From Gymnodinialimonas sp. 202GB13-11 (GTDB taxonomy: Bacteria; Pseudomonadota; Alphaproteobacteria; Rhodobacterales; Rhodobacteraceae): 64,000 bases of DNA. The position numbers and the translations under genes were made by a program. The DNA lies in the NCBI RefSeq assembly GCF_040932485.1, contig NZ_JBFRBH010000001.1, forward strand, positions 1,488,001 through 1,552,000, read 5' to 3'. The notes beneath the pieces were generated by a model. The model saw only the letters and a program-made list of their open reading frames with translations. It searched no databases and was not told the DNA's origin. Positions 2,650-15,137 of the stretch are shown piece after piece (position 1 is the first letter of the stretch; the number at the start of each line of letters is the position of its first letter).

Positions 2650-2829
2650 GGCATGTCCCCCACTTTATTCCAGCGCAAAACTCGCCGCCCTTCCGCCACT
2701 TGTCCACCCGTTATCGCGGCTTGTCACCCGGCCAACACCTTGCAAGACGACCCCTTTTACTTTGCGGGCGTGAAAGCTAATCTCCCCTCCATCAAGGGCG
2801 ATGAACGCCCATCCACAGGGAGAATATTG

Positions 2830-4026
2830 ATGAAGAAGTTTTTGCTGGCATCCGCCGCATCCATGGCGCTGACCGGTGCTGCAGCCGCTGATGGCCACCA
2901 GGGTGACGTGACCCTCGGTGTGATCCTCGGCTTCACGGGCCCCATCGAATCGATCACGCCAGCCATGGGCGACGGCGCAGAGCTTGCGATGGCCGAAGTC
3001 ACCGAGTCCGGCGCACTTTTCGATGGCGCAGCCGTCACGTCCGTGCGCGCGGACTCCACCTGCGTTGACTCTTCGGCAGCACAAGCCGCGGCTGAACGCT
3101 TGATCACGTCGGACGGCGTGCACGGCATTGTCGGCGCGGATTGCTCCGGTGTGACCGGCTCCATCCTGGCCAACGTCGCTGTGCCAAACGGCATGGTAAT
3201 GATCTCGCCCTCCGCCACGTCGCCGGGCCTCTCGACCGCTGAAGACAACGGCCTGTTCTTCCGCACCGCACCGTCTGACGCGCGTCAGGGTGTTGTGATG
3301 GCTGAAATCATCATGGAACGTGGCATCGACACCGTCGCCGTCACCTACACCAACAACGATTATGGTCAGGGCCTCGCAGACGCCTTTACCGCCGCCTTTG
3401 AAGAGGCCGGTGGCACCGTGACGCTCTCCGCCGCCCATGAAGACGGACGCGCGGACTATTCCGCTGAAGTCGGCGCACTGGCCTCGGCCGGTGGTCAGGC
3501 GCTTGTCGTGGCGGGCTATGTCGACCAAGGCGGTTCTGGCGTGATCCAGGCAGCACTCGACACCGGCGCGTTTGACACGTTCGTCTTCCCGGACGGCATG
3601 GTCTCTCAGGCACTCGTCGACAACTTCGGCTCCGACATCGACGGCTCCTTCGGCCAGAACCCCGGCACCGACAGCGAAGGCGCAGGCCTCTTCCAGGCGA
3701 TGGCTGAAGAAGCTGGCTTCGATGGCACCTCGCCCTTCTCGGCGGAAAGCTATGACGCAGCAGCGCTGATCATGCTCGCCATGGCAGCTTCCGGTTCGCG
3801 CAATGCCGCCGACTACATGGGCGAAGTCATGAACGTGGCCAACGCACCGGGCACCGAGATCCTGCCGGGTCAGCTTGGCATGGCGCTTGAGATGATCGCC
3901 AACGGCGAAGACGTGGACTACGTCGGCGCGTCGGCAGTGGAGCTCATCGGTGCAGGCGAATCCGCCGGCAACTACCGTGAGATCGAAATCGTCGATGGTG
4001 AGCTTTCGGTCGCTGGCTACCGCTGA
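2830..4026 (+). CDS. livK: Branched-chain amino acid ABC transporter, substrate-binding protein
   Basis: Periplasmic binding protein of the Leu/Ile/Val (Peripla_BP_6) family, 398 residues. A Sec signal peptide occupies about residues 1-20 (KKF, hydrophobic core, AAAADGH cleavage region). The mature protein opens with VTLGVILGFTGP and has the typical SSAAQAAAERLI and VAVTYTNNDYGQGLADAF segments. The ATG at 2830 follows GGGAGAA; the longer open frame from 2653 is non-coding upstream sequence. It is the first gene of the liv operon and is followed by an intrinsic terminator, which would let the binding protein be made in excess of the membrane subunits. Substrate could be other amino acids or amides; family specificity is broad. 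Confidence 0.92.
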   Translation: MKKFLLASAASMALTGAAAADGHQGDVTLGVILGFTGPIESITPAMGDGAELAMAEVTESGALFDGAAVTSVRADSTCVDSSAAQAAAERLITSDGVHGIVGADCSGVTGSILANVAVPNGMVMISPSATSPGLSTAEDNGLFFRTAPSDARQGVVMAEIIMERGIDTVAVTYTNNDYGQGLADAFTAAFEEAGGTVTLSAAHEDGRADYSAEVGALASAGGQALVVAGYVDQGGSGVIQAALDTGAFDTFVFPDGMVSQALVDNFGSDIDGSFGQNPGTDSEGAGLFQAMAEEAGFDGTSPFSAESYDAAALIMLAMAASGSRNAADYMGEVMNVANAPGTEILPGQLGMALEMIANGEDVDYVGASAVELIGAGESAGNYREIEIVDGELSVAGYR

Positions 4027-4101: not shown

Positions 4102-4893
4102 ATGATCGAAGTCCACGACCTACACAAACACTTCGGCGGCTTCCATGCCGTGGATGGCGCAAGCCTGAAAATTGAGACCGGCTCAATCACCGGCCTGATC
4201 GGCCCCAATGGCGCAGGAAAAACCACGCTTTTCAATGTGATCGCAGGCGTTCTTGAACCAACATCCGGGCGCGTTCACATGGACGGCGAGGACATTACCG
4301 GCCTGCCGCCACACAAGCTGTTCGGCAAGGGTCTGCTGCGCACCTTCCAGATCGCGCATGAGTTCAGCTCCATGACGTGCCGCGAAAACCTTATGATGGT
4401 GCCTGAAGGTCAGACCGGCGAAAGCCTGTGGAACACGTGGTTTGGCCGCAAGCGGATCGCTGATGAAGAGCGCGCGCTCCGGGCGAAGGCCGACGAGGTT
4501 CTTGAATTCCTCACCATCACACACCTCGCGGACCACCCCGCGGGTGCCGTCTCAGGCGGTCAGAAAAAGCTTCTGGAACTTGGCCGCACTATGATGGTTG
4601 ACGCCAAGATCGTCTTTCTTGATGAGGTTGGTGCAGGCGTGAACCGCACCCTTCTCAACACGATCGGCGACACAATCCTGCGCCTGAACAAGGAACGGAA
4701 CTACACCTTCTGCGTGATCGAGCATGACATGGATTTCATCGGCAAAATCTGCGGCCCCGTGATCTGTATGGCCGAAGGCAAAGTCCTCGCCGAGGGCACG
4801 CTCGATGAAATCAAGGCCAACGAGCAAGTGATCGAGGCTTATCTGGGCACGGGCCTCAAAAACAAAGACCAACTGGAAAGCGCGCCTGCATGA
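4102..4893 (+). CDS. livG: Branched-chain amino acid ABC transporter ATPase LivG
   Basis: Cytoplasmic ATPase subunit, 263 residues. Walker A GPNGAGKTT lies near residues 34-42, the ABC signature appears as VSGGQKK, and Walker B as IVFLDEVGAG, followed by the switch His in VIEHDMDF. The insertion after the Q-loop (LLRTFQIAHEFSSMT) is typical of LivG rather than LivF. The gene sits between livK and the first of the interposed CX9C genes, whose ATG overlaps the livG stop as ATGA. The Walker B segment reads DEVGAGVN where most relatives have DEPxAGLN; the catalytic Glu is kept. Confidence 0.93.
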   Translation: MIEVHDLHKHFGGFHAVDGASLKIETGSITGLIGPNGAGKTTLFNVIAGVLEPTSGRVHMDGEDITGLPPHKLFGKGLLRTFQIAHEFSSMTCRENLMMVPEGQTGESLWNTWFGRKRIADEERALRAKADEVLEFLTITHLADHPAGAVSGGQKKLLELGRTMMVDAKIVFLDEVGAGVNRTLLNTIGDTILRLNKERNYTFCVIEHDMDFIGKICGPVICMAEGKVLAEGTLDEIKANEQVIEAYLGTGLKNKDQLESAPA

Positions 4894-5405
4894 TCAAGGC
4901 GGGCATGGTCTTGGCCACAGCGGTACTCGGTGCCCCTGCACTGGCCGAAGACTGCCGCTTTTTGCGCGACCCCGTCCATATCTGCGGCTCCGACCATGGC
5001 TGGTTCGAGTTCGGCCCATTCGGGCGCTATGGCAATGATGCATTTCTAACCAGGGTTGGTGGCCCCAACGCCTACATCGTGTCAGACCCGCTGGATGGCT
5101 CGGACTATACGCTCGCCACGCTTGAAGCGACCGCGTTGCGTGGGCTTCCCGCAGGCGATCCGGAAGCCAGGACAGTGCGGGTTCTCGAACGTAGTGTCGT
5201 GTCTCACCTGGGCATGGAATGGCTCACACTCGTTTATGAAAGGCGCACGTCCGAAGACGTGACCTTGCTCTTCGCCAACACCATGGCGCTGACAGAAACA
5301 CACGCGATCCAGTTGATCACCATCGAGCACGAGGTAGACGCCTACACCGACACCCACCGCGCGGATCACGCTCTGTTCGTCTCCGCCATCGCGTTAGAGC
5401 CGTAG
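4890..5405 (+). CDS. Exported CX9C protein 1 (unknown family)
   Basis: I do not recognise a named family. It is a 171-residue protein with a Sec signal peptide (residues 1-19, ending ALA) and then Cys22 and Cys32 in CX9C spacing, the only cysteines of the mature chain, so a single disulfide is likely in the periplasm. The C-terminal part (FANTMALTETHAIQLITIE) aligns by eye with the next gene (YSNSMLLMEDSVAQFVTIE), so the two are paralogs. The ATG overlaps the livG stop (ATGA) and the stop abuts the next start, which indicates tight translational coupling inside the liv operon. A periplasmic role alongside the transporter is plausible but unproven. Confidence 0.8.
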   Translation: MIKAGMVLATAVLGAPALAEDCRFLRDPVHICGSDHGWFEFGPFGRYGNDAFLTRVGGPNAYIVSDPLDGSDYTLATLEATALRGLPAGDPEARTVRVLERSVVSHLGMEWLTLVYERRTSEDVTLLFANTMALTETHAIQLITIEHEVDAYTDTHRADHALFVSAIALEP

Positions 5406-5966
5406 ATGATGAAACGCGTGCTCCCTTTTGCCCTTCTCCTCTGCGGCATTCCCGCGCTGGCGCAGGTGGCCCCAAAGGACGGCGATCTGCCGATGCCCGG
5501 CTCCGCCCCCTGCCCGTTGATTGCCGAGCCTGTCCGGTTCTGCGGCACGTCCCCGCAATTCGTCCTCACGCCCCAAGCCGACAATGCCGAGATCACCAGC
5601 TATTTCGCCACACCCCTGGGCATTCAGGCCATCGCCGTGGTTGAACCGATCGGCCGCACCAATGGGCTGACGATCGAGCGCTTGCAGGACGTGGCGCTCC
5701 AGAACCTCGCCGCAGCTTCTGGCGCACCCGTTGAAACAATCCCCGTGATCCAGCGAGGGCAGCTTATCATCGCAGGCGGTCCTCACCCGAACTTCGTCTA
5801 CCGCGGAACGGTAGATGGTGAGATGTATGTCTATTCTAACTCCATGCTGCTGATGGAGGACAGCGTTGCCCAATTCGTCACTATCGAATCTGGCGTGACC
5901 ACCTATTCCCCGCGCCACCGCTCACTTCATCTGCAATTCCTCGACCAGATGCAGGTGACCCAATGA
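5406..5966 (+). CDS. Exported CX9C protein 2 (unknown family)
   Basis: A 186-residue paralog of the preceding gene, family not recognised. Signal peptide residues 1-19 (LLLCGIPALA), a Pro-rich linker, then Cys36 and Cys46 in CX9C spacing (CPLIAEPVRFC, compared with CRFLRDPVHIC in copy 1). A shared helix-like segment follows (IERLQDVALQNL, compared with LATLEATALRGL), as does a shared C-terminal block ending in SLHLQFLDQM. The ATG-ATG start directly follows the TAG of copy 1 with no spacer. The next gene overlaps its stop by four bases. No catalytic motif is seen. Confidence 0.8.
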   Translation: MMKRVLPFALLLCGIPALAQVAPKDGDLPMPGSAPCPLIAEPVRFCGTSPQFVLTPQADNAEITSYFATPLGIQAIAVVEPIGRTNGLTIERLQDVALQNLAAASGAPVETIPVIQRGQLIIAGGPHPNFVYRGTVDGEMYVYSNSMLLMEDSVAQFVTIESGVTTYSPRHRSLHLQFLDQMQVTQ

Positions 5967-6499
5967 GCCTTCCACGCCTTTCTGCCATCGCATTCGCAAT
6001 AGTCACCACGTTGACCGCCCCCGCCGCGGCCGACTGCATCGACTGGGGCCTCGATCTTGAGGTGTGCAGCACGCCCGACATCAGTGTGGCCTACAATGAA
6101 ATCGGCTTCCCATTCGCCGAGATTCGCACGGAAACACGCCTAACGCAGGTTTTCTGGACAGTCAGCGGACCTCGCATCGAAAGCGAAACTGACCTCGAAA
6201 ACTCCTTCTGGACCGTGTGGAGCCTAGTTGGCGACCGTCTTGAAGGTAGGGGCCACCTGGACTTCAACCGTGATTACATGAGCGAAATCAACGGCCAGAC
6301 CGTCTTTCGCAACCCGTTCGTCCTCCGCCCAGAAGACAATCCAAACCACTTCTACATCCATCTCTCGGTCTTCGACGCCTTTGGTGTCCCCGCCGCCATC
6401 GAGATCATCGAACCGGTTCGCAGTAGTGATACGCAGACCACCAATGCCTTGCTTGCCCAGGCCATGCAGATGATACAACCACAAGGCACCGGCCAGTGA
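5963..6499 (+). CDS. Exported CX9C protein 3 (unknown family, divergent)
   Basis: A 178-residue exported protein with signal peptide 1-23 (ending AAA) and Cys25/Cys35, again CX9C and again the only cysteines of the mature chain. Outside the Cys pair it is much more diverged from its two upstream neighbours. It shares the position of the motif and a C-terminal segment of the form HLSVFDAFGVPAAIEIIEP that may correspond to the MALTETHAIQLITIE block. Trp-rich central part (QVFWTV, NSFWTVW). The start overlaps the upstream stop as ATGA; livF follows after 34 bases. Membership of the same family is inference from motif, position and layout. Confidence 0.75.
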   Translation: MSLPRLSAIAFAIVTTLTAPAAADCIDWGLDLEVCSTPDISVAYNEIGFPFAEIRTETRLTQVFWTVSGPRIESETDLENSFWTVWSLVGDRLEGRGHLDFNRDYMSEINGQTVFRNPFVLRPEDNPNHFYIHLSVFDAFGVPAAIEIIEPVRSSDTQTTNALLAQAMQMIQPQGTGQ

Positions 6500-6533
6500 T
6501 CCGGCGCACATGCTTACCCAAGACAGGCCAACC

Positions 6534-7274
6534 ATGACCCAAACCGCAGCCGCCACAGACACCACAACGCCCTTCCTGATAGGCGACGCCATGACCGGCG
6601 GCTATGGCTCGGGCGCGGATATCCTGCATTCCTGCACCATCGCCGTGAATCCCGGCGAGATTGCCGTCATCGTTGGCCCCAACGGCGCGGGCAAATCTAC
6701 CGCCATGAAGGCTGTCTTCGGGATGCTGAACCTGCGCGAAGGCCATGTGATGCTGGATGGAACCGATATCTCGGGCCTCACGCCGCAAGCGCGTGTTGCG
6801 GCGGGCATGGGTTTCGTGCCCCAGACCTCCAACATCTTCACGTCGATGACGGTCGAGGAGAACCTCGAAATGGGCGCTTTCATCCGCAAGGACGATTTCC
6901 GGGCCACGATGGAGCAGGTTTACGACCTCTTCCCGATCCTCCGTGAAAAGCGCAAACAGGCGGCGGGGGAGCTTTCCGGCGGCCAGCGCCAGCAAGTCGC
7001 CGTGGGCCGCGCGTTGATGACCCAGCCCAAGGTCCTGATGCTGGACGAGCCCACCGCTGGCGTTTCCCCCATCGTCATGGACGAACTCTTTGACCGCATC
7101 ATTGAGGTCTCACGCACCGGCATCCCGATCCTCATGGTGGAACAGAACGCCCGCCAGGCCCTTGAGATTGCAGATCGCGGCTATGTGCTCGTCCAAGGCC
7201 GCAACGCCTATACCGGCACCGGCAAGGAACTGCTGGCCGACCCCGAAGTGCGCAAAAGCTTCCTAGGCGGTTGA
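6534..7274 (+). CDS. livF: Branched-chain amino acid ABC transporter ATPase LivF
   Basis: Second ATPase of the liv system, about 246 residues from the ATG at 6534; an ATG-like reading from 6510 adds eight residues and is less likely. Walker A GPNGAGKST, signature LSGGQRQQ, Walker B VLMLDEPTAG and the switch segment LMVEQNARQAL are all intact and typical of LivF. The N-terminus is a little long (MTQTAAATDTTTP) before the conserved core. It separates the three CX9C genes from the nine four-cysteine genes; the first of these starts with GTG four bases after the livF stop. Confidence 0.92.
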   Translation: MTQTAAATDTTTPFLIGDAMTGGYGSGADILHSCTIAVNPGEIAVIVGPNGAGKSTAMKAVFGMLNLREGHVMLDGTDISGLTPQARVAAGMGFVPQTSNIFTSMTVEENLEMGAFIRKDDFRATMEQVYDLFPILREKRKQAAGELSGGQRQQVAVGRALMTQPKVLMLDEPTAGVSPIVMDELFDRIIEVSRTGIPILMVEQNARQALEIADRGYVLVQGRNAYTGTGKELLADPEVRKSFLGG

Positions 7275-7278
7275 TCCT

Positions 7279-7689
7279 GTGCGGGCAGCGTTATTCGGTA
7301 CACTGATGCTACTGGCCAGCCTGCCAGCCGCCGCCCAAATTCAGCCCCGAACCATGACTTGCGCCATCGACTTTGTGTGCACCGGGGTCAGCCTTGACCC
7401 GGACACGTGCGAACGTGCCGAAGGAGCGGCTAACGTCCAGATAACCACAGACTTGATCACCGTCTCCGCATTCGAAGAAACGCTGCGCTTCGACGATATC
7501 ACACCCGGAAGCCTGTCCCTCAACACGGGCATGACGGCGTCCGGCCTCGACACGTCCTCCGATCCGGCTCGCTACATGACCCTTGTGCTGTCCGATACGA
7601 CCCTTGGCGTTTTCATCAGTGACGAGCGGGCCGAAAGCGGCGAGTATTACGGCGCACGCACCTTTGCCGCCACCTGTCCTGCGCCATAG
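7279..7689 (+). CDS. Four-cysteine exported protein, array copy 1
   Basis: First of nine tandem paralogs; no named family recognised. 136 residues with signal peptide 1-19 (ASLPAAAQ region). Cys28, Cys34 and Cys44 give CX5C followed by an unusually long CX9C, and the fourth Cys is at 133, three residues from the end. The body has no catalytic motif and looks like a small beta-rich domain. GTG start at 7279, four bases after livF, so it is probably coupled to livF translation. The pattern of one N-terminal Cys cluster and one C-terminal Cys, shared by all nine copies, suggests two disulfides joining the ends of the chain. Confidence 0.78.
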   Translation: MRAALFGTLMLLASLPAAAQIQPRTMTCAIDFVCTGVSLDPDTCERAEGAANVQITTDLITVSAFEETLRFDDITPGSLSLNTGMTASGLDTSSDPARYMTLVLSDTTLGVFISDERAESGEYYGARTFAATCPAP

Positions 7690-7718
7690 CCCTCCCTTCG
7701 CTTCAAGGAGCATCGAAC

Positions 7719-8108
7719 TTGGAACAAGTCACAATCCTTCTGACCTGCACTTTCCTGACCTTTTGCGGCGGCGACGGAACCTGCACCAGCGACACACCCT
7801 TGCCGATTACGCTCGACCCCGGCGCCGACAGCGCATCGGCCCGGATCTGGGCCACGCCGGGCGCCACGGGCAGACCAACCGGCGCCGAGATCATTCCACC
7901 GCTTCCATCCAGCGCAGGCGCGCCATTGCATTTCCTAGCCCGCACACGCTCTGAAGGCGCTCTCGTACTGTCGATCAGTCGAAATCCATCCGACGACAGC
8001 ATGCGCGCCACGCTGCGCCGTCATCCTGACCGAGGCGGGAATCCAGCCGGACCCGACGCGTTCGTCTCAGAAGAAGTCCCCTGCCAACAGTCATTCGTGA
8101 GGCAGTGA
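7719..8108 (+). CDS. Four-cysteine protein, array copy 2, no clear signal peptide
   Basis: 129 residues from a TTG at 7719 that follows AAGGAG by eight bases. Cys10, Cys16, Cys22 form the CX5CX5C motif and Cys122 is the C-terminal one, so the signature is complete. Unlike its neighbours the motif begins only ten residues from the start and is itself in the hydrophobic stretch (ILLTCTFLTFC). No usable signal peptide is visible, and the upstream reading adds none. Either the start is misjudged, export has been lost, or this copy is degenerate. The C-terminal half is Arg/Pro rich and less conserved. It ends in a GTGA overlap with copy 3. Confidence 0.62.
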   Translation: MEQVTILLTCTFLTFCGGDGTCTSDTPLPITLDPGADSASARIWATPGATGRPTGAEIIPPLPSSAGAPLHFLARTRSEGALVLSISRNPSDDSMRATLRRHPDRGGNPAGPDAFVSEEVPCQQSFVRQ

Positions 8109-8527
8109 CAGGTCGGAGCAACATACCCCAACGCCTCGTTTGCGCGGCTATGCTCGCTCTGCCTTTGCCAGCGCAGGCCAATCTCAGCGATGACATCGCA
8201 ACAACAACGTACACCGCCACCTGCGAAACCATCGAAATCTGCCGTGAGAGCAGCGGCTGCGTCTCGTTCCCAACCTTCGGCGTTCTGATCCTTCAGGTTC
8301 AAGGCGACAGAGGCAGTCTCGGGCCAGAGGCCGACGATCCGCGCCCTCTCAACGTCTACCACGCCCTCGAGTCTGCGCCCCCAGACCCCGAAGATCTCGG
8401 CCTGCGCTTCATCGTCGAGCAAGAGGCAACAGACCCCCTCACCCGCCGTTTCGCCTATGTCGACCAAACCCGTGCAGGCCCCGCCGGGCGCTATTTCATG
8501 CTCGAATGCACGGAGCGGTCCGAATGA
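8105..8527 (+). CDS. Four-cysteine exported protein, array copy 3
   Basis: 140 residues; GTG start overlapping the stop of copy 2 as GTGA. Signal peptide about residues 1-25 (LVCAAMLALPLPAQA). Cys40, Cys46 and Cys52 give CX5CX5C (CETIEIC, then RESSGC), and Cys135 lies five residues from the C-terminus. The middle is acidic and Pro-rich (ALESAPPDPEDLG). Family unknown; assignment to the array rests on the cysteine signature, size, export signal and coupling. The next start overlaps its stop as ATGA. Confidence 0.75.
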   Translation: MTGRSNIPQRLVCAAMLALPLPAQANLSDDIATTTYTATCETIEICRESSGCVSFPTFGVLILQVQGDRGSLGPEADDPRPLNVYHALESAPPDPEDLGLRFIVEQEATDPLTRRFAYVDQTRAGPAGRYFMLECTERSE

Positions 8528-8892
8528 TCCGCGCACTGGCCGCCTGTCTCTGCCTCGTTAGCTCCCCCGCGGCGGCCACTGGCCTTGCCTGCACGTTCAC
8601 GCAGCTCTGCTCCCCCCTCACCGATTGCCAGACACACCCCGGTCTGCCCTTCACCTTTGATCTCATCTCCGGCGCGCTGGCGTTGACCACGGCGGATGGC
8701 ATCGCCTTGGGCACCCCGCTCTCGCATGTGGAGGCACCAGCCCTGTCGCTCCTCTTCGACACCCGGCCCGATCAAACCCTACTCCTCAGCGTCTCCGCCA
8801 CCGGCGAAGCCGCGATGACCCAGCATGATTTTGAGGCCGCAGGCAGGCTCACCTCGGTCAGCTATTTCGGCACGTGTGAGCCCGCCTCATGA
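8524..8892 (+). CDS. Four-cysteine exported protein, array copy 4
   Basis: 122 residues from the ATG at 8524, which overlaps the copy 3 stop (ATGA). Signal peptide 1-18 (LVSSPAAA). Cys23, Cys29 and Cys35 form CX5CX5C (CTFTQLC, SPLTDC) and Cys118 is in a YFGTC ending. The motif and the ending are strikingly like copy 9 (CTFTTTC, FFGSC) and to a lesser degree copy 2 (CTFLTFC), marking these as the closest relatives within the array. No enzymatic motif. Its stop overlaps copy 5 by four bases. Confidence 0.78.
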   Translation: MIRALAACLCLVSSPAAATGLACTFTQLCSPLTDCQTHPGLPFTFDLISGALALTTADGIALGTPLSHVEAPALSLLFDTRPDQTLLLSVSATGEAAMTQHDFEAAGRLTSVSYFGTCEPAS

Positions 8893-9245
8893 TCCGCCTC
8901 GCTTCCTTGCTGCTCCTCAGCGCACCCGCCCAAGCCGACGTCCTGATCTGCGGCTTCTCCCCGACAGATTGCGCGCCCGGCGTCCTGTGCGAACCTTACG
9001 AAGTGACAATCAACACTCACCACGGCGCAGCCGCCCCGCTGTTCGACTATGGCGGCCACATCGTGCCAATCCGCGTGATCCCCGAGGAAGGGGTCCAGGC
9101 CCCAAGCTACGTCACGCTCGGCCATGGCGACCGCGAGATGATCACGCTATTCAACGGCCTCGACGCTATCCATACCCGGCACTTCACCTTGAACGGCCAA
9201 CCTGCCGCCCAAACCACCGTTGGCCGCTGCACCAGCTTCTACTGA
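8889..9245 (+). CDS. Four-cysteine exported protein, array copy 5
   Basis: 118 residues, one of the shortest copies. Signal peptide 1-16 (LLLLSAPAQA). Cys21, Cys28 and Cys34 read CX6CX5C, the only copy with a six-residue first spacing, and Cys114 is in the GRCTSFY terminus. Starts in an ATGA overlap with copy 4 and is separated from copy 6 by nine bases. The central HGAAAPLFDYGGHIVPI segment has no match that I recognise. Role inferred only from membership of the array. Confidence 0.76.
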   Translation: MIRLASLLLLSAPAQADVLICGFSPTDCAPGVLCEPYEVTINTHHGAAAPLFDYGGHIVPIRVIPEEGVQAPSYVTLGHGDREMITLFNGLDAIHTRHFTLNGQPAAQTTVGRCTSFY

Positions 9246-9254
9246 AAGGTCCCC

Positions 9255-9659
9255 ATGCGCCTCCTCGCAACAACCGCCCTTCTCTGCACCCCGCCCCTTG
9301 CAGCGCCCGCGCAAGAGGCGCCCGTGGAATGGACGTGCCTTCTCAACGTCATGTGCCCACATACCGGAGCCTGCCGTGACCTCGCCCAAACAATTGCGAT
9401 CATCGAAGGCAATGAAGGTTGGACCGTGGATTGGATCGATACCGACCTCCCTTCCGACTACGAATTGATCGCTGACCTCCCACCCGTTGAAGGGGCCGCC
9501 CATCAGACCCGTGTTCGCAGCCTCATGCACCGCGATCCGGACAGCCAAACCGTTCAAACGCTGACCTTCGACAGCACTGGCCATGTGATCGTGACCACCC
9601 ACCAACCCCATGCGGGCATGCAGGTCGTCACCGGCCTCGGGACTTGTGAGCAATCATGA
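9255..9659 (+). CDS. Four-cysteine exported protein, array copy 6
   Basis: 134 residues, ATG at 9255 preceded by GAAAGG. Signal peptide about 1-20 (PPLAAPAQ). Cys28, Cys34 and Cys40 form an exact CX5CX5C (CLLNVMC, PHTGAC), and Cys131 sits in a LGTCEQS terminus comparable to FGTC of copy 4. The mature protein is acidic with a WTVDWIDTDL segment. Its stop overlaps copy 7 as ATGA. Family unknown. Confidence 0.78.
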   Translation: MRLLATTALLCTPPLAAPAQEAPVEWTCLLNVMCPHTGACRDLAQTIAIIEGNEGWTVDWIDTDLPSDYELIADLPPVEGAAHQTRVRSLMHRDPDSQTVQTLTFDSTGHVIVTTHQPHAGMQVVTGLGTCEQS

Positions 9660-10078
9660 CATTTGCCGTGCGAGTCGTCGCCGCATGTGTTGCAGCGGTC
9701 ATCGCGCACCCGCTTTCGGCGCAAGTCCTGTCGGATCGAATGCTGTGCGAACTCATCGACCCCTGTGGCGATGAACCCTGCGAAGGATTGGACGCACCGC
9801 TTCTCTTCTCACTCGAACTTGTAGATGGTACGTGGCTTTGGGATCCGCTGGCCGAATGGAACGGGTTTCCGGTTGCAGTTGCTGAAACCCTTACACAAGC
9901 GGAGGCATTGGCGCAGGAAGATACCACAGAGGTTGGCCTGATCCTCGTTCCCATGGGACACACGGAAGACGGCGCGCTTATCCTTGATGGCTACGGCTTC
10001 CAGTATTTCCCCACCCGCGGTCTCGCCCCCCGCGCAATGCGCCACCATTGTGCACCGGTTGGGCGTGACCTGTCATGA
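9656..10078 (+). CDS. Four-cysteine exported protein, array copy 7
   Basis: 140 residues. Signal peptide 1-22 (HPLSAQ). Cys31, Cys37 and Cys42 read CX5CX4C (CELIDPC, GDEPC); Cys132 is in HHCAPV. It is the evident sister of copy 8: both have an (S/P)DRM(L/V)C lead-in, an aromatic W(L/F)W turn, and a GFPVAVAETLTQAEALA block that matches GLPATIASTVAEAQDMA. The pair therefore arose by a later duplication than the rest. ATGA overlaps on both sides. Confidence 0.78.
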   Translation: MTFAVRVVAACVAAVIAHPLSAQVLSDRMLCELIDPCGDEPCEGLDAPLLFSLELVDGTWLWDPLAEWNGFPVAVAETLTQAEALAQEDTTEVGLILVPMGHTEDGALILDGYGFQYFPTRGLAPRAMRHHCAPVGRDLS

Positions 10079-10506
10079 TCCACTTCGTTTTGGCCTTCAT
10101 GCTTCCAACGACTTCCGCCATTGCCAATCCGACGTGGGATAGCTTCCCCGACCGGATGGTCTGCCAATCGCAAACGCCGTGCAACCTGCAAGCCATTTGC
10201 GACGCTGGAACACCGGCGCACCTCATCCTCACCCGCGATGGCTCTGAATGGTTTTGGACCGTAACGCCAGAGCACCCGTCACGCGGCCTCCCCGCGACCA
10301 TCGCCAGCACGGTGGCGGAAGCGCAAGACATGGCCCGCAGCCACAGACTTTCAGACCCGCCAATCTATCGCTTCCTGTTCGTCGCGGTTTCCGGCAACGC
10401 CACGGGATCGATCTTGATCCACGCCCACGAATTCAACCCCGTGTCCCGTGCGCTCATACCGGGCCCGCTCGAATATGTCTGCCACCCCTCTGAGGTCACA
10501 TCATGA
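10075..10506 (+). CDS. Four-cysteine exported protein, array copy 8
   Basis: 143 residues, the longest copy and sister of copy 7. Signal peptide 1-17 (LPTTSAIA). Cys30, Cys36 and Cys42 are CX5CX5C (CQSQTPC, NLQAIC), with Cys136 in EYVCHP. The W-F-W turn and the STVAEAQDMA helix-like segment are shared with copy 7. Both ends are ATGA overlaps with neighbours. No catalytic residues recognised. Confidence 0.78.
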   Translation: MIHFVLAFMLPTTSAIANPTWDSFPDRMVCQSQTPCNLQAICDAGTPAHLILTRDGSEWFWTVTPEHPSRGLPATIASTVAEAQDMARSHRLSDPPIYRFLFVAVSGNATGSILIHAHEFNPVSRALIPGPLEYVCHPSEVTS

Positions 10507-10841
10507 TCCGCACAGCTTTCGCCCTGCTATTGCTCGCCACACCAGCCATGGCCGAACCGTGGGACTGCACCTTCACCACCACCTGCCTCGCCAGCCTCGA
10601 CTGCTTTGATCAGGACAATTCGGCCCGTGTGATAGCCGCCGATCATGCAGGCGATCTGTTTCTTGAATGGGACGGAATGCAGCTGCGCGCTGAGGCACTT
10701 TCCGACGGCGCAGGATATGTGGCCGTCTCTCCGAGGGACACACACGCCTTGCTGACGATTACCGGCAATCTGGCCATACTGACCACCCACACCGCCGCTG
10801 CCATGACCTTTTTCGGCAGTTGCGAGGTCTTGGGAAATTGA
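10503..10841 (+). CDS. Four-cysteine exported protein, array copy 9
   Basis: 112 residues, the shortest copy and last of the array. Signal peptide 1-17 (LLATPAMA). Cys22, Cys28, Cys34 form CX5CX5C (CTFTTTC, LASLDC), and Cys107 lies in FFGSC, six residues from the end. It is closest to copy 4. Starts in an ATGA overlap with copy 8 and is followed by a 54-base gap before livH, the largest gap in this part of the operon, though no terminator is seen there. Confidence 0.78.
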   Translation: MIRTAFALLLLATPAMAEPWDCTFTTTCLASLDCFDQDNSARVIAADHAGDLFLEWDGMQLRAEALSDGAGYVAVSPRDTHALLTITGNLAILTTHTAAAMTFFGSCEVLGN

Positions 10842-10895: not shown

Positions 10896-11906
10896 ATGGA
10901 TTTTCTGAACGCACTCGTTGCGCTGGCGAACTTCGTCATTATTCCCGCCACCGCCTATGGCGCGCAGCTCGCACTGGGTGCGCTTGGCGTGACGCTGATC
11001 TACGGCATCCTGCGGTTTTCCAACTTCGCCCATGGCGACACGATGGCATTCGGCACCATGATCACGATCTTCGGCACCTGGGGCCTGCAGGCCGCAGGCG
11101 TCAGCTTCGGCCCCCTGCCCACAGCGCTCCTCGCCCTACCTCTCGGCATCGCCGTCACGGCCCTTCTGGTGATCGGCACCGACCGCACCGTCTACCGCTT
11201 CTACCGCGAAAACAAAGCCAAACCCGTGATTTTCGTGATCGCCTCCCTCGGCGTCATGTTCATCATGAACGGCATCGTGCGCTTCCTTATCGGCGTCGAT
11301 GACCAACGCTTTGCCGATGGCGAGCGGTTCATTATCCGCGCCCGCGACTTCCGCGAGATGACCGGCCTCGACGAAGGCCTCGCCTTCCGCACTACCCAAG
11401 GCATCACAATCGTTGTGGCCCTGATTGCCGTCATAGCGCTCTTCTGGTTCCTCAACCGCACCCGTACCGGCAAGTCGATGCGCGCGTTTTCCGACAACGA
11501 AGACCTGGCCCTTCTGTCGGGCATCAACCCCGATCGTGTCGTGCTTGTCACCTGGATCATCGTCGCCGCGCTCGCCACCACCGCGGGCGTCCTCTACGGC
11601 CTCGACAAGTCGTTCAAGCCCTTCACCTATTTCCAGCTGCTCCTGCCGATCTTCGCCTCCGCCATTGTCGGCGGCCTCGGCAACCCGCTCGGCGCCATTC
11701 TTGGCGGCTTCCTCATCGCCTTCTCCGAAGTCGGCGTGACTTATGCATTCCGCAAAGTGGTGGGCTATCTGGGGCCAGAGGATTGGCAGCCAGAGGGCCT
11801 CCTGCAACTGCTCAGCACCGATTACAAATTCGCCGTCTCCTTCGGCATCCTGCTGATCGTGCTGCTCTTCAAACCCACCGGCATCATGAAGGGGAAATCA
11901 GTATGA
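10896..11906 (+). CDS. livH: Branched-chain amino acid ABC transporter permease LivH
   Basis: Inner-membrane permease, 336 residues, mostly hydrophobic helices. The N-terminal GVTLIYGILRFSNFAHGD segment and the later NEDLALLSGINPDRV cytoplasmic loop (the coupling loop to the ATPases) are hallmarks of LivH, as is the IVGGLGNPLGAILGGF segment. Compared with short LivH proteins it has an extended loop around residues 125-165 (VDDQRFADGERF). Start at the ATG 10896; the stop overlaps livM as ATGA. Works with LivM, LivG, LivF and the LivK binding protein. Confidence 0.93.
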   Translation: MDFLNALVALANFVIIPATAYGAQLALGALGVTLIYGILRFSNFAHGDTMAFGTMITIFGTWGLQAAGVSFGPLPTALLALPLGIAVTALLVIGTDRTVYRFYRENKAKPVIFVIASLGVMFIMNGIVRFLIGVDDQRFADGERFIIRARDFREMTGLDEGLAFRTTQGITIVVALIAVIALFWFLNRTRTGKSMRAFSDNEDLALLSGINPDRVVLVTWIIVAALATTAGVLYGLDKSFKPFTYFQLLLPIFASAIVGGLGNPLGAILGGFLIAFSEVGVTYAFRKVVGYLGPEDWQPEGLLQLLSTDYKFAVSFGILLIVLLFKPTGIMKGKSV

Positions 11907-13219
11907 GCGACGCAGCCACCACCCCTCAGTCGGGTAATTCCAAAACCATCCTTCTCTTCGCTCTTGTGGCCGTTCTCTTCATCGGCACCGGTTTCGTGCA
12001 GTCGTGGAACACTGCGCTCACGATCTTCAACATGGGGCTGATCTCGGCCATCATGGCGCTCGGCGTGAACATGCAATGGGGCTACGCGGGCCTCTTCAAC
12101 GTGGGCGTCATGGGCTTCGTGGCCCTCGGTGGCCTCGCCGCCGTCCTCGTGTCCTCCGACCCAGTGCCAGAGGCCTGGGCCGCCGGCGGCCCGCAAGTCC
12201 TTCTCGGCCTCGTCCTTGGCGCCATGACCATCGTCGCTGCCATCCTGACCTACACCAAACTCCCCGCCGGACGCCTCCGCGCGCTCGCGGTGGTCGTCGT
12301 CTTGATCGGCGGCTTTGCCATCTTCCGCACCGTCTTCGACCCCGCCGTTGAGGCCGTCGAAGCCGTCGATCCCGCCTCCACCGGCTTTCTCGGTGGCCTC
12401 GGCCTGCCCGTCATCCTCGCCTGGCCCATGGGCGGCGTTCTCGCCGCCGGTGCCGCATGGATCATCGGCAAGACGGCCCTTGGCCTGCGCTCCGACTACC
12501 TCGCCATCGCCACCCTCGGCATCGCCGAGATCATCATCGCCGTCCTCAAAAACGAGGATTGGCTGGCGCGCGGCGTGAAGAACGTCACCGGCATTCCCCG
12601 CCCCGTCCCCTATGAAGTCGACCTGCAGGCGAACGAGGCCTTCCTGAACGCCTTCGCCGACCCGGTTACGGCCTCCACCATCACCGTCAAACTCGCCTAT
12701 GCGGGCCTCTTCATCCTGTTCCTGATCGCCTTGATCTGGCTCAGCGAGAAAGCGTGGAACTCCCCCTGGGGCCGCATGATGCGCGCCATCCGCGATAATG
12801 AGGTCTCGGCTTCAGCCATGGGCAAGGACGTCAAAGCGCGTCACTTGCAAATTTTCATCCTCGGCTCCGCCGTCTGCGGCTTGGCCGGCGCAATGATGAC
12901 CACGCTCGACAGCCAGCTTGTGCCCGGCACCTACCAGCCCCTGCGCTTCACCTTCCTGATCTGGGTGATGGTGATCGTCGGCGGATCGGGCAACAACTGG
13001 GGCGCGGTCCTGGGCGGCTTCCTGATCTGGTGGCTCTGGGTGCAGGTCGAACCGATGGGCCTGATGCTTATGCAGGGCCTGACTTACTTCTTGGAACCAG
13101 GCTCAGCCCTGTCTGAGCACCTGCTCGACAGCGCCGCGCATATGCGCCTACTGACGATGGGCTTGATCCTGCTGCTGGTCCTGCGCTTCAGCCCACGGGG
13201 CTTGATCCCGGAGCGATAA
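11903..13219 (+). CDS. livM: Branched-chain amino acid ABC transporter permease LivM
   Basis: Second membrane subunit, 438 residues from the ATG at 11903, which overlaps the livH stop. Typical LivM blocks are ALGVNMQWGYAGLFNVG, GLRSDYLAIATLGIAEII and AIRDNEVSASAMGKDV (coupling loop), then a VGGSGNNWGAVLGGF segment. It is longer than average because of extra hydrophobic sequence around residues 85-170. It ends the liv operon; a GC-rich inverted repeat follows 33 bases downstream. Confidence 0.92.
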   Translation: MSDAATTPQSGNSKTILLFALVAVLFIGTGFVQSWNTALTIFNMGLISAIMALGVNMQWGYAGLFNVGVMGFVALGGLAAVLVSSDPVPEAWAAGGPQVLLGLVLGAMTIVAAILTYTKLPAGRLRALAVVVVLIGGFAIFRTVFDPAVEAVEAVDPASTGFLGGLGLPVILAWPMGGVLAAGAAWIIGKTALGLRSDYLAIATLGIAEIIIAVLKNEDWLARGVKNVTGIPRPVPYEVDLQANEAFLNAFADPVTASTITVKLAYAGLFILFLIALIWLSEKAWNSPWGRMMRAIRDNEVSASAMGKDVKARHLQIFILGSAVCGLAGAMMTTLDSQLVPGTYQPLRFTFLIWVMVIVGGSGNNWGAVLGGFLIWWLWVQVEPMGLMLMQGLTYFLEPGSALSEHLLDSAAHMRLLTMGLILLLVLRFSPRGLIPER

Positions 13220-13544: not shown

Positions 13545-15137
13545 TCAGATCGGCTCTGCCGCGGACAACACGGTTGGCAAAGCCGACGACACATAAGGCA
13601 GGTAGCTGTCGATACGGACCACGGGCGCACCGATGCGTTGCGCGAAATCGTCAAACGGACCCGATGCCTTGATCAACGAATCCCTGCAATGGATGAGCGT
13701 CGCACGAGGGCGCAAATTGCTGCTTTGGGGCGCATAGGCCCAATCCACACAGGAATAGCTTGAATCCCGCCACATCCCGTCTGCCCTATGGACCATGAGA
13801 TCGGCGAAGTTCCGGTCATCCGCGTGCAGACCGTCTTCTGTCTCCACCTTGCGCATCTCAACACCGATCAACGGATGCACCCCGGCATGGCGATCCTCCA
13901 TCCGCTCCAGTTGATGCATCGCCAGCCCGAACATGAATTTGATCGTCTTGGGGGCATAAAGGCAGGCCAGACCAAATGTCTTCATCTTGCCGACAAAACC
14001 TGTCGTCACCTCACGCGACAGGATCGGTGGCACTGCTTCGATCCCTACAATCGTCTGCACCCGTTCGGGGTGTTGCAGGGCCAGTTGATATCCAACGGCA
14101 AACCCATCCGCCGCCGCAAAGATCGAGAATGCGCCAATCCCTTCCTGGTCCAGCACCGCCATCACGTCGTCGATGTGATCCTGCAACAGCGCTTCGCCTT
14201 CCTTGACGTTCACCGAAGATGGCCCCCGACCCGCGCGACTAATGCGCACCACTTGCCAGCCGCGACCAACCGCAAGCGCCCGTGCGTTCTCCGGCCAATG
14301 CCGCCCTTGCGTCATCCCGTGCAGGTAGACCAGTGTCTTGCCCGAGTTTGGTCCATCCACCTCATATCCAAGCGTCCGGCCATCCGGTCGCTGCAGCGTC
14401 AGCAGACCACCCTCCCCGGCTGCGCGCGCTTGCGTCGCTTGCGGGGGGATCAATGTCGCCGCCTGATTCAACATGCGCAAAATATCGGATTGGGAACTGA
14501 CCCCCAACTTATTGGTCAGGGATTTGACCTGGCTGCGCACCGTCTCCCACGATTTCCCGACACGGTCGGCGATTTCGCGCAGCGTACCGCCCAGAAGAAG
14601 CTCTTTCAGCAGGCCGAATTCCGCGTGGGTTAAATCGAAACTCTCGGCCACGAAGGCCGAAATGACACGCTCAAAGGCATCGCCCGAGCGCTTCGACACA
14701 TATCCATCCACCGCCGGGTCACGCGACAGCATGACCAGTTCAACCGCCTGACCCTCGTTCACCCGCAGCAGCAGGGTCGACCCGTCCTCATCATCGGACA
14801 ACCACTTGTTCAGCTTGTCCTGATCCTCCAGTGGGATGCGCGCCACAAAACCGGCTGCAACGTCTGCCTTGCTCTCATAGCGTGTGATGTCCAGCGCCTG
14901 CAGGGCTTCGACCTCGTCCGGCGTAGCACCTTGCGAAAGCTCCCCTAACAAGCGCCAGGCTCGATCTGCATGATATTCCAGCTTCGGGGATATTAGCTGC
15001 CCATCTTCATCATCGAGCCACGAGGTCAGGACCTCCATCAAACGGTCCAACTGTGCCGGTTCGGTCAAGCACTCGTAAAATGCCAAAAGCACTTCACCAA
15101 GCGTTGGGGCCGAAGGAGGATGTTCTAGTTTGGACAT
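13545..15137 (-). CDS. LuxR-type HTH fused to a catalytically incomplete alpha/beta-hydrolase domain
   Basis: 530 residues in three parts. Residues 1-160 are an acidic region without a domain I recognise. A LuxR/GerE-like helix-turn-helix follows at about 168-222 (LTHAEFGLLKELLLGGTLREI... ETVRSQVKSL). An alpha/beta-hydrolase fold runs from about 250 to 530, with an oxyanion-type LVYLHGMT segment at 269-276 and an RAGRGPS turn. The nucleophile elbow at 341-345 reads AAADG, so no Ser is there, and the C-terminal position where the catalytic His is expected has SYLP with no His. The hydrolase domain is therefore more likely a ligand sensor than an enzyme. ATG start at 15137. It is transcribed alone, with the hairpin at 13253 as terminator. 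The ligand and targets are unknown. Confidence 0.85.
   Translation of the reverse strand: MSKLEHPPSAPTLGEVLLAFYECLTEPAQLDRLMEVLTSWLDDEDGQLISPKLEYHADRAWRLLGELSQGATPDEVEALQALDITRYESKADVAAGFVARIPLEDQDKLNKWLSDDEDGSTLLLRVNEGQAVELVMLSRDPAVDGYVSKRSGDAFERVISAFVAESFDLTHAEFGLLKELLLGGTLREIADRVGKSWETVRSQVKSLTNKLGVSSQSDILRMLNQAATLIPPQATQARAAGEGGLLTLQRPDGRTLGYEVDGPNSGKTLVYLHGMTQGRHWPENARALAVGRGWQVVRISRAGRGPSSVNVKEGEALLQDHIDDVMAVLDQEGIGAFSIFAAADGFAVGYQLALQHPERVQTIVGIEAVPPILSREVTTGFVGKMKTFGLACLYAPKTIKFMFGLAMHQLERMEDRHAGVHPLIGVEMRKVETEDGLHADDRNFADLMVHRADGMWRDSSYSCVDWAYAPQSSNLRPRATLIHCRDSLIKASGPFDDFAQRIGAPVVRIDSYLPYVSSALPTVLSAAEPI

Follow-up and report, generated by a model that had tools for sequence, protein, structure and literature searches.

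ZinT, a small, zinc-binding periplasmic protein of the calycin type, acts as an accessory of the ATP-binding cassette (ABC) importer ZnuABC. In PMC5507604, the adhesin complex protein (ACP) of Neisseria, a lysozyme inhibitor, is described as an exported barrel of eight strands, the first and last of which are joined by a disulfide, and MliC/PliC as membrane-bound or periplasmic eight-stranded barrels with a strand 1–strand 8 disulfide and the motifs SxSGAxY and YxxxTKG. Brucella PhiA is described as a peptidoglycan hydrolase inhibitor (PMC12354254). We analysed a stretch of 64,000 nucleotides from Gymnodinialimonas sp. 202GB13-11 (contig NZ_JBFRBH010000001.1, positions 1,488,001 to 1,552,000; hereafter the window), in which nine consecutive small genes, here called copies 1–9, lie at 7279–10841 on the plus strand of an LIV-type importer operon, between livF (end 7274) and livH (start 10896). 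They represent a mostly exported four-cysteine family that has no model in the libraries searched and is linked to a single operon in the large bacterial family Rhodobacteraceae.

A first-pass annotation, made from the sequence letters, had described nine paralogous exported proteins with a CX5CX5C cluster and a C-terminal cysteine; the place, gene order, strand and livF–livH position of the array were verified by coordinates. Three cysteines lie close to the N-terminus of every product and a fourth close to its C-terminus, and the spacings re-read as claimed, with exceptions in copies 1, 5 and 7 (Table 1). The claimed ATGA or GTGA overlaps were found at six of the eight junctions, the other two having 29 (junction 1/2) and 9 (junction 5/6) intergenic bases. 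Copy 4, which has 128 residues if counted from the first ATG, most likely starts at 8524, in the ATGA overlap, rather than at 8506. Signal-peptide-like starts, judged by eye and by a simple hydrophobicity score rather than a dedicated predictor, were seen in eight of the nine products, the number annotated, copy 2 being the exception. The absence is no fault of this genome, because the copy 2 orthologues in three congeners (G150, G157 and G160) likewise lack a signal peptide.

Table 1 Importer operon of the window in plus-strand gene order (livK, livG, X1–X3, livF, nine copies, livH, livM). Slots are numbered after the copies.
Feature	Coordinates	Strand	Length (aa)	Remarks
LivK-type substrate-binding protein	2827..4026	+		Pfam Peripla_BP_6, E 1.6e-31
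LivG-type ATPase	4102..4893	+		Pfam ABC_tran and BCA_ABC_TP_C
X1, second exported family	4890..5405	+		livG–livF gap; signal-peptide-like start; no family at cut-off
X2, exported, same second family as X1	5406..5966	+		livG–livF gap
X3, exported protein	5963..6499	+		livG–livF gap
LivF-type ATPase	6510..7274	+		Pfam ABC_tran
Copy 1	7279..7689	+	136	GTG start; C-x5-C-x9-C plus C; no orthologue in 12 other genus genomes
Copy 2	7719..8108	+	129	TTG start; no signal peptide; orthologues in three congeners
Copy 3	8105..8527	+	140	GTGA overlap with copy 2; core slot, 13/13 genus genomes
Copy 4	8524..8892	+	122	ATGA overlap with copy 3; core slot
Copy 5	8889..9245	+	118	ATGA overlap with copy 4; C-x6-C-x5-C; orthologues in two congeners, one apparently frame-broken
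Copy 6	9255..9659	+	134	Core slot; ratio of nonsynonymous to synonymous rates (dN/dS) 0.07, lowest among six compared with G157
Copy 7	9656..10078	+	140	ATGA overlap with copy 6; C-x5-C-x4-C
Copy 8	10075..10506	+	143	ATGA overlap with copy 7; sister to copy 7 slot
Copy 9	10503..10841	+	112	ATGA overlap with copy 8; core slot; predicted eight-stranded barrel
LivH-type permease	10896..11906	+		Pfam BPD_transp_2
LivM-type permease	11783..13219 as listed	+		Pfam BPD_transp_2 from residue 79 on

Profile searches of Pfam and NCBIfam found no model for the nine copies, in line with the annotated lack of a named family with this signature, and no homology of any copy to LivK, LivG, LivF, LivH or LivM. 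The best match to Protein Data Bank (PDB) sequences was at E 0.08 or worse. Two candidates were rejected, FlgD_ig for copy 9 (E 0.067, 13.6 bits, cut-off 27) and a TrmL model for copy 8 (E 0.023, 14.6 bits, cut-off 282). A literature search for this four-cysteine family found no description, and no wider negative is claimed.

A profile from the alignment of the nine copies (A1) found only these nine in their own genome, the tenth match (E 1.87) being noise. An iterated profile over 9520 six-frame open reading frames (ORFs) from 110 loci (window included) yielded 167 family ORFs, 155 of them with distinct proteins; gene starts were picked by a purpose-written script, not a gene finder. Loci and genomes are cited below by L and G numbers. 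A second profile (A2) comprised 75 of 81 proteins, with L120:8986, L130:8703, L139:9413, both L152 rows and L158:9409 excluded. Scans of these 75 members gave a best Pfam E of 0.034, with no match to an inhibitor family, nothing convincing in PHROGs (one member at E 0.0098) and no match in PADLOC.

When the window and its genus were left out of profile building, copies 2, 4, 5, 6 and 9 were recovered at E 5e-7 to 3e-19; copy 1 reached 1e-4, copy 3 7e-4, copy 7 0.02 and copy 8 0.04. In a first control, full-length sequences were shuffled up to 50 times per copy with the signal peptide and cysteines kept. The best shuffles reached 4e-5 (copy 1), 3e-4 (copy 3), 7e-4 (copy 7), 0.04 (copy 8) and 2e-10 (copy 9), and copies 1, 3, 7 and 8 did not outscore them in this full-length test. 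In a stricter control, signal peptides were removed and slot profiles were compared by hhalign with 40 column shuffles that kept the cysteines. The profiles of slots 2, 3, 4, 5, 6, 7 and 9 outscored all 40 shuffles over 101–107 core columns (slot 3, 25.5 against a shuffle maximum of 10.7; slot 7, 26.2 against 17.6), despite low hhalign probabilities (33% for slot 3 and 37% for slot 7). The mature parts of copies 1 and 8, tested as single sequences, did not outscore their shuffles (copy 1, 8.3 against a maximum of 10.8); copy 8 matched copy 7 by BLASTP at E 1e-8. Eight of the nine annotated paralogues are supported as one family because the slot-profile tests pass and copy 8 matches copy 7. Copy 1 is a candidate member by its place, signal peptide and cysteine pattern.

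Among the 110 loci, 162 of the 167 family ORFs lay sense-oriented inside the livF–livH gap. The remaining five were in L087, L090, L136 (livG–livF gap) and, twice, L069; those of L087 and L090 end right before livH, the former from a far upstream start and the latter on a contig without livF. Because these loci had been chosen for family matches or LivH, whole genomes served as a second test of the tie: 292 of them, all from the window's own family, were searched with profile A2 at E 0.01. A2 matched 128 of them (own genome included), 20 with a best E of only 0.001–0.01, and LivH matched 281. Among the matches listed, 143 were in 88 other genomes; 112 of these (59 genomes) could be placed, and each of the 112 was no more than 6 kb from LivH. 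With A1, 149 family genomes drawn earlier gave 17 matches besides the own genome, 16 at livF–livH and one (G084) elsewhere. The annotated set had been called locked into the operon, and both the whole-genome placements and the ORFs in the livF–livH gap support a tie to it.

Copy number was surveyed across Rhodobacteraceae, as the first-pass annotation had proposed, and varies from zero to nine. Of 80 loci found via LivH, 79 had a measurable livF–livH gap, which was at most 100 bp in 22 operons, 182 bp in one and at least 300 bp in 56. Members were detected in 47 of the 56 long gaps, with one copy in 34, two in nine, and three, four, five and six in one operon each. The remaining nine included seven with a small exported-looking cysteine protein, by eye; none was seen by eye in L133 and L157. 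Counts over the whole set of loci are not independent, as L060/L086, L078/L093, L075/L103, L079/L117 and L074/L160 are the same genomes. The window array of nine is the largest seen, relatives having zero to about six at the same spot; the six of Vannielia litorea (L134) include two without Cys2 and Cys3. In other genera, further copies were observed at the livG–livF junction (L136/L184, one genome; L179) and, apparently, at the livH–livM junction (L176, L178). A class-wide draw of 337 genomes gave four matches outside the window's family (E 9e-4 to 6.5e-9), besides the own genome and one same-family genome. The four loci (L203–L206) are without liv genes; by their look, L203 and L204 may be relatives but L206 is not, and no ORF of L205 matched.

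All 13 genus genomes carry copies: four in six genomes, five in two, six in four and nine in the window genome. In a tree with few columns, in which 36 of 83 inner branches were well supported, slots 3, 4, 6 and 9 were recovered in all 13, slot 2 in four, slot 5 in three, slot 7 in six, and slots 8 and 1 in the window genome only. Gene order fits the tree slots where it was read (L066 by label only); the tree labels of L060 and L088 deviate from true gene order. Slot 9 is not exclusive to the genus clade, as copies from other genera fall among its rows, and slot 6 groups with copies from G084 and Nioella. Most duplications therefore predate the genus; in the sequence tree, the 7/8 pair alone seems particular to this lineage. 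The annotated view of several rounds of duplication is therefore kept, modified in that slots 3, 4, 6 and 9 are old. Copies 7 and 8 are indeed closer, being sister slots in the tree as well as matching by BLASTP. The likewise annotated closeness of copies 4 and 9 did not hold: their likeness is confined to the signal peptide and cysteine cluster, and the tree places each with its own orthologues. In G159, the slot-5 copy (L067, 9217–9588) is apparently frame-broken, with the signal part and body in different frames.

For six slots compared with G157, dN/dS was 0.07–0.26, against 0.02–0.04 for livK, livG, livF and livH, with dS up to 1.5 and near saturation; the LivM rows WIN-L065 and L066-L067 were dropped owing to an extraction fault (9–10% identity). 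For the copy 4/5 pair of L066-L067 the ratio was 0.90, a value that rests on very few differences (synonymous difference pS 0.02). The values of the six slots indicate real genes under selection that evolve faster than their own operon. It is unlikely that the copies are hitchhikers, duplicated locally at operon junctions, expressed to little benefit and subject to birth and death. Such a process would suit the copy-number range, the copies at livG–livF and apparently livH–livM, and the broken slot-5 copy, but it sits poorly with four slots kept in 13 of 13 genus genomes, with purifying selection, and with 154 of 155 distinct proteins having both Cys1 and Cys4, Cys2 and Cys3 being always both present or both absent.

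All 75 rows of A2 have Cys1 and Cys4; Cys2 and Cys3 occur together in 66 and are both missing from nine. Among the 155 distinct proteins, 143 have all four cysteines and 11 are without Cys2 and Cys3; in the frame-broken copy of L067, Cys4 is missing. The AlphaFold model of copy 9 (75 sequences; predicted local distance difference test, pLDDT, 89; predicted template-modelling score, pTM, 0.78) has eight strands, with Cys22 in strand 1 and Cys107 in strand 8, both invariant in A2, and copy 9 is thus predicted to be a small, compact eight-stranded barrel. From the joint presence or loss of Cys2 and Cys3 and the strand places, we infer disulfides Cys1–Cys4 (strands 1–8) and Cys2–Cys3 (strands 1–2). 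The structure and disulfide prediction that had been proposed as a check gave a barrel for copy 9; the copy 7 model gave seven strands and a helix. The latter (pLDDT 77, five models 77 to 46) used a four-row alignment with one ill-chosen row, and its Foldseek list was not barrel-like. That row, L092:8604-9011 in alignment A3, groups with slot 5; the slot 7 row in the tree is L092:8206-8604.

Foldseek with copy 9 returned no match at E 0.001 or better, and its list consists of small barrels (DUF3598, PhiA, lipocalins and fatty-acid-binding proteins, FABPs). Besides the cysteines, conservation is seen at alternating buried hydrophobic residues, at some glycines and at a strand-7 histidine (41 of 69 rows). 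The dominance of calycin-like barrels in this weak list, together with the linkage to a binding-protein-dependent importer, might recall proteins that capture ligands and load LivK with different substrates, in the manner of ZinT and ZnuA. The strands alternate hydrophobic and polar residues, which suggests that the core is filled, and the family as a whole shows no conserved polar pocket, so we regard ligand capture as improbable. Of the annotated proposal of accessory or ligand-capturing proteins, the accessory part stands as the best reading, by linkage, and the ligand-capturing part does not.

The barrels could instead protect the envelope, as inhibitors of the MliC/ACP/PhiA kind directed against peptidoglycan-cleaving enzymes or similar attackers and merely co-expressed with a nutrient operon, which we consider somewhat unlikely. 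The predicted strand number and strand 1–strand 8 disulfide are those of ACP and MliC/PliC (PMC5507604), Brucella PhiA appears at Foldseek ranks 2, 7 and 15, the copies evolve faster than the liv genes and turn over in number, and those of G084 persist without liv beside them. Yet the PhiA rows have template-modelling (TM) scores of 0.41–0.43 / 0.49–0.52 with E above 0.001, lipocalins and FABPs score alike, and MliC, PliC and ACP are not named among the best 50 Foldseek rows. Moreover, SxSGAxY occurs in one and YxxxTKG in none of the 155 distinct proteins, and envelope protection would leave the tie to one operon unexplained.

We tentatively prefer the reading that the copies are periplasmic accessory proteins that bind the importer, which we hold to be quite possible. 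The operon tie and the overlaps point to an importer-linked job, and an accessory role is our best guess from this linkage. The copies, encoded with overlapping frames inside the operon, would be exported, probably by Sec given their signal peptides, and oxidised to the Cys1–Cys4 and Cys2–Cys3 disulfides, folding, as predicted for copy 9 only, into compact eight-stranded barrels. Each paralogue may then offer a different surface to a protein partner, most likely the LivK–LivH–LivM assembly, and such binding might tune or guard substrate capture.

Several observations weigh against this role. The 22 operons with short livF–livH gaps have no room for any copy, 31 listed matches in 29 genomes could not be placed relative to LivH, the second copy of G326 lies away from liv (L186), and copy 2 has no signal peptide. 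In G084, a single draft genome, two copies of slots 6 and 9 stand behind a tripartite ATP-independent periplasmic (TRAP) transporter operon (L069, 2837–10434), and its liv operon (L202) is on another contig with a livF–livH gap of about 9 bp. The chromosomal place is the same, with urate genes and the TRAP operon; the copies begin about 50 bp past dctM, overlap by ATGA and are followed by the usual ECH gene. The proteins can therefore persist without adjoining liv. Nor is any surface patch or polar pocket conserved family-wide, the rest of the surface being variable. That 22 of 79 operons have no copy, together with G084 and the variability of the surface, argues against an obligatory part of the importer or a common ligand.

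A bolder form of the accessory reading, a diversifying guard set of surface-variable, disulfide-locked barrels on the binding protein and permease, seems to us a long shot. That such barrels change with threats or ligands, for example toxins or phages using the permease as a door, is similarly doubtful; if true, the guard set would represent a novel type of variable system bound to an importer. A ready comparison is offered by genomes whose livF–livH gap holds no copy, one copy or several; it would reveal whether a core nutrient importer has partners in the periplasm that can be adjusted.

The importer itself was identified at family level. The nearest solved chains of LivK were Leu/Ile/Val-binding proteins and 3ip5-type amino-acid-binding proteins, and none of the NCBIfam cut-offs shown was reached by LivK, LivG, LivF, LivH or LivM; branched-chain amino acids as substrate are thus a guess from the family label. 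The urate genes and TRAP operon beside liv in some relatives were dropped as a substrate hint, as most loci are without them. The listed livM ORF begins within livH, and the true start is probably near 11903. No terminator-like sites were found on the plus strand between 2600 and 13400. Downstream, on the minus strand (13545–15137), a LuxR-type helix-turn-helix is fused to an alpha/beta hydrolase domain, both slightly below Pfam cut-offs; among the compared loci this gene adjoins liv only in the window and L068. The livG–livF gap of the window (4890–6499) holds an exported family of the X1–X3 type that is also present in L062, L065–L068, L103, L127, L134 and L160, and X1 is 24–27% identical to X2-type proteins from congeners. 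This gap was at least 300 bp in nine of the 79 operons, being filled by a four-cysteine protein in L136, and all nine also have a livF–livH gap of at least 300 bp (hypergeometric 0.037, relatedness ignored).

The known systems resemble the copies to differing degrees. ZinT differs in that the four-cysteine family has no conserved histidine cluster, with one partly conserved histidine. Brucella PhiA is a small barrel among the top Foldseek rows for copy 9, and E values of 0.03–0.11 with TM scores of 0.41–0.52 mark a fold-level resemblance only. MliC/PliC match in the predicted eight strands (copy 9 only) and the putative strand 1–strand 8 disulfide, but the four-cysteine family has no Pfam match to the inhibitors, does not carry their motifs and does not find them among the best 50 Foldseek rows. 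Neisseria ACP, also absent by name from these 50 rows, has one disulfide in its structure against two proposed for the copies. Its likeness, drawn from description and not from direct sequence comparison, lies in export, the eight-stranded barrel predicted for copy 9 and the putative disulfide between the first and last strands.

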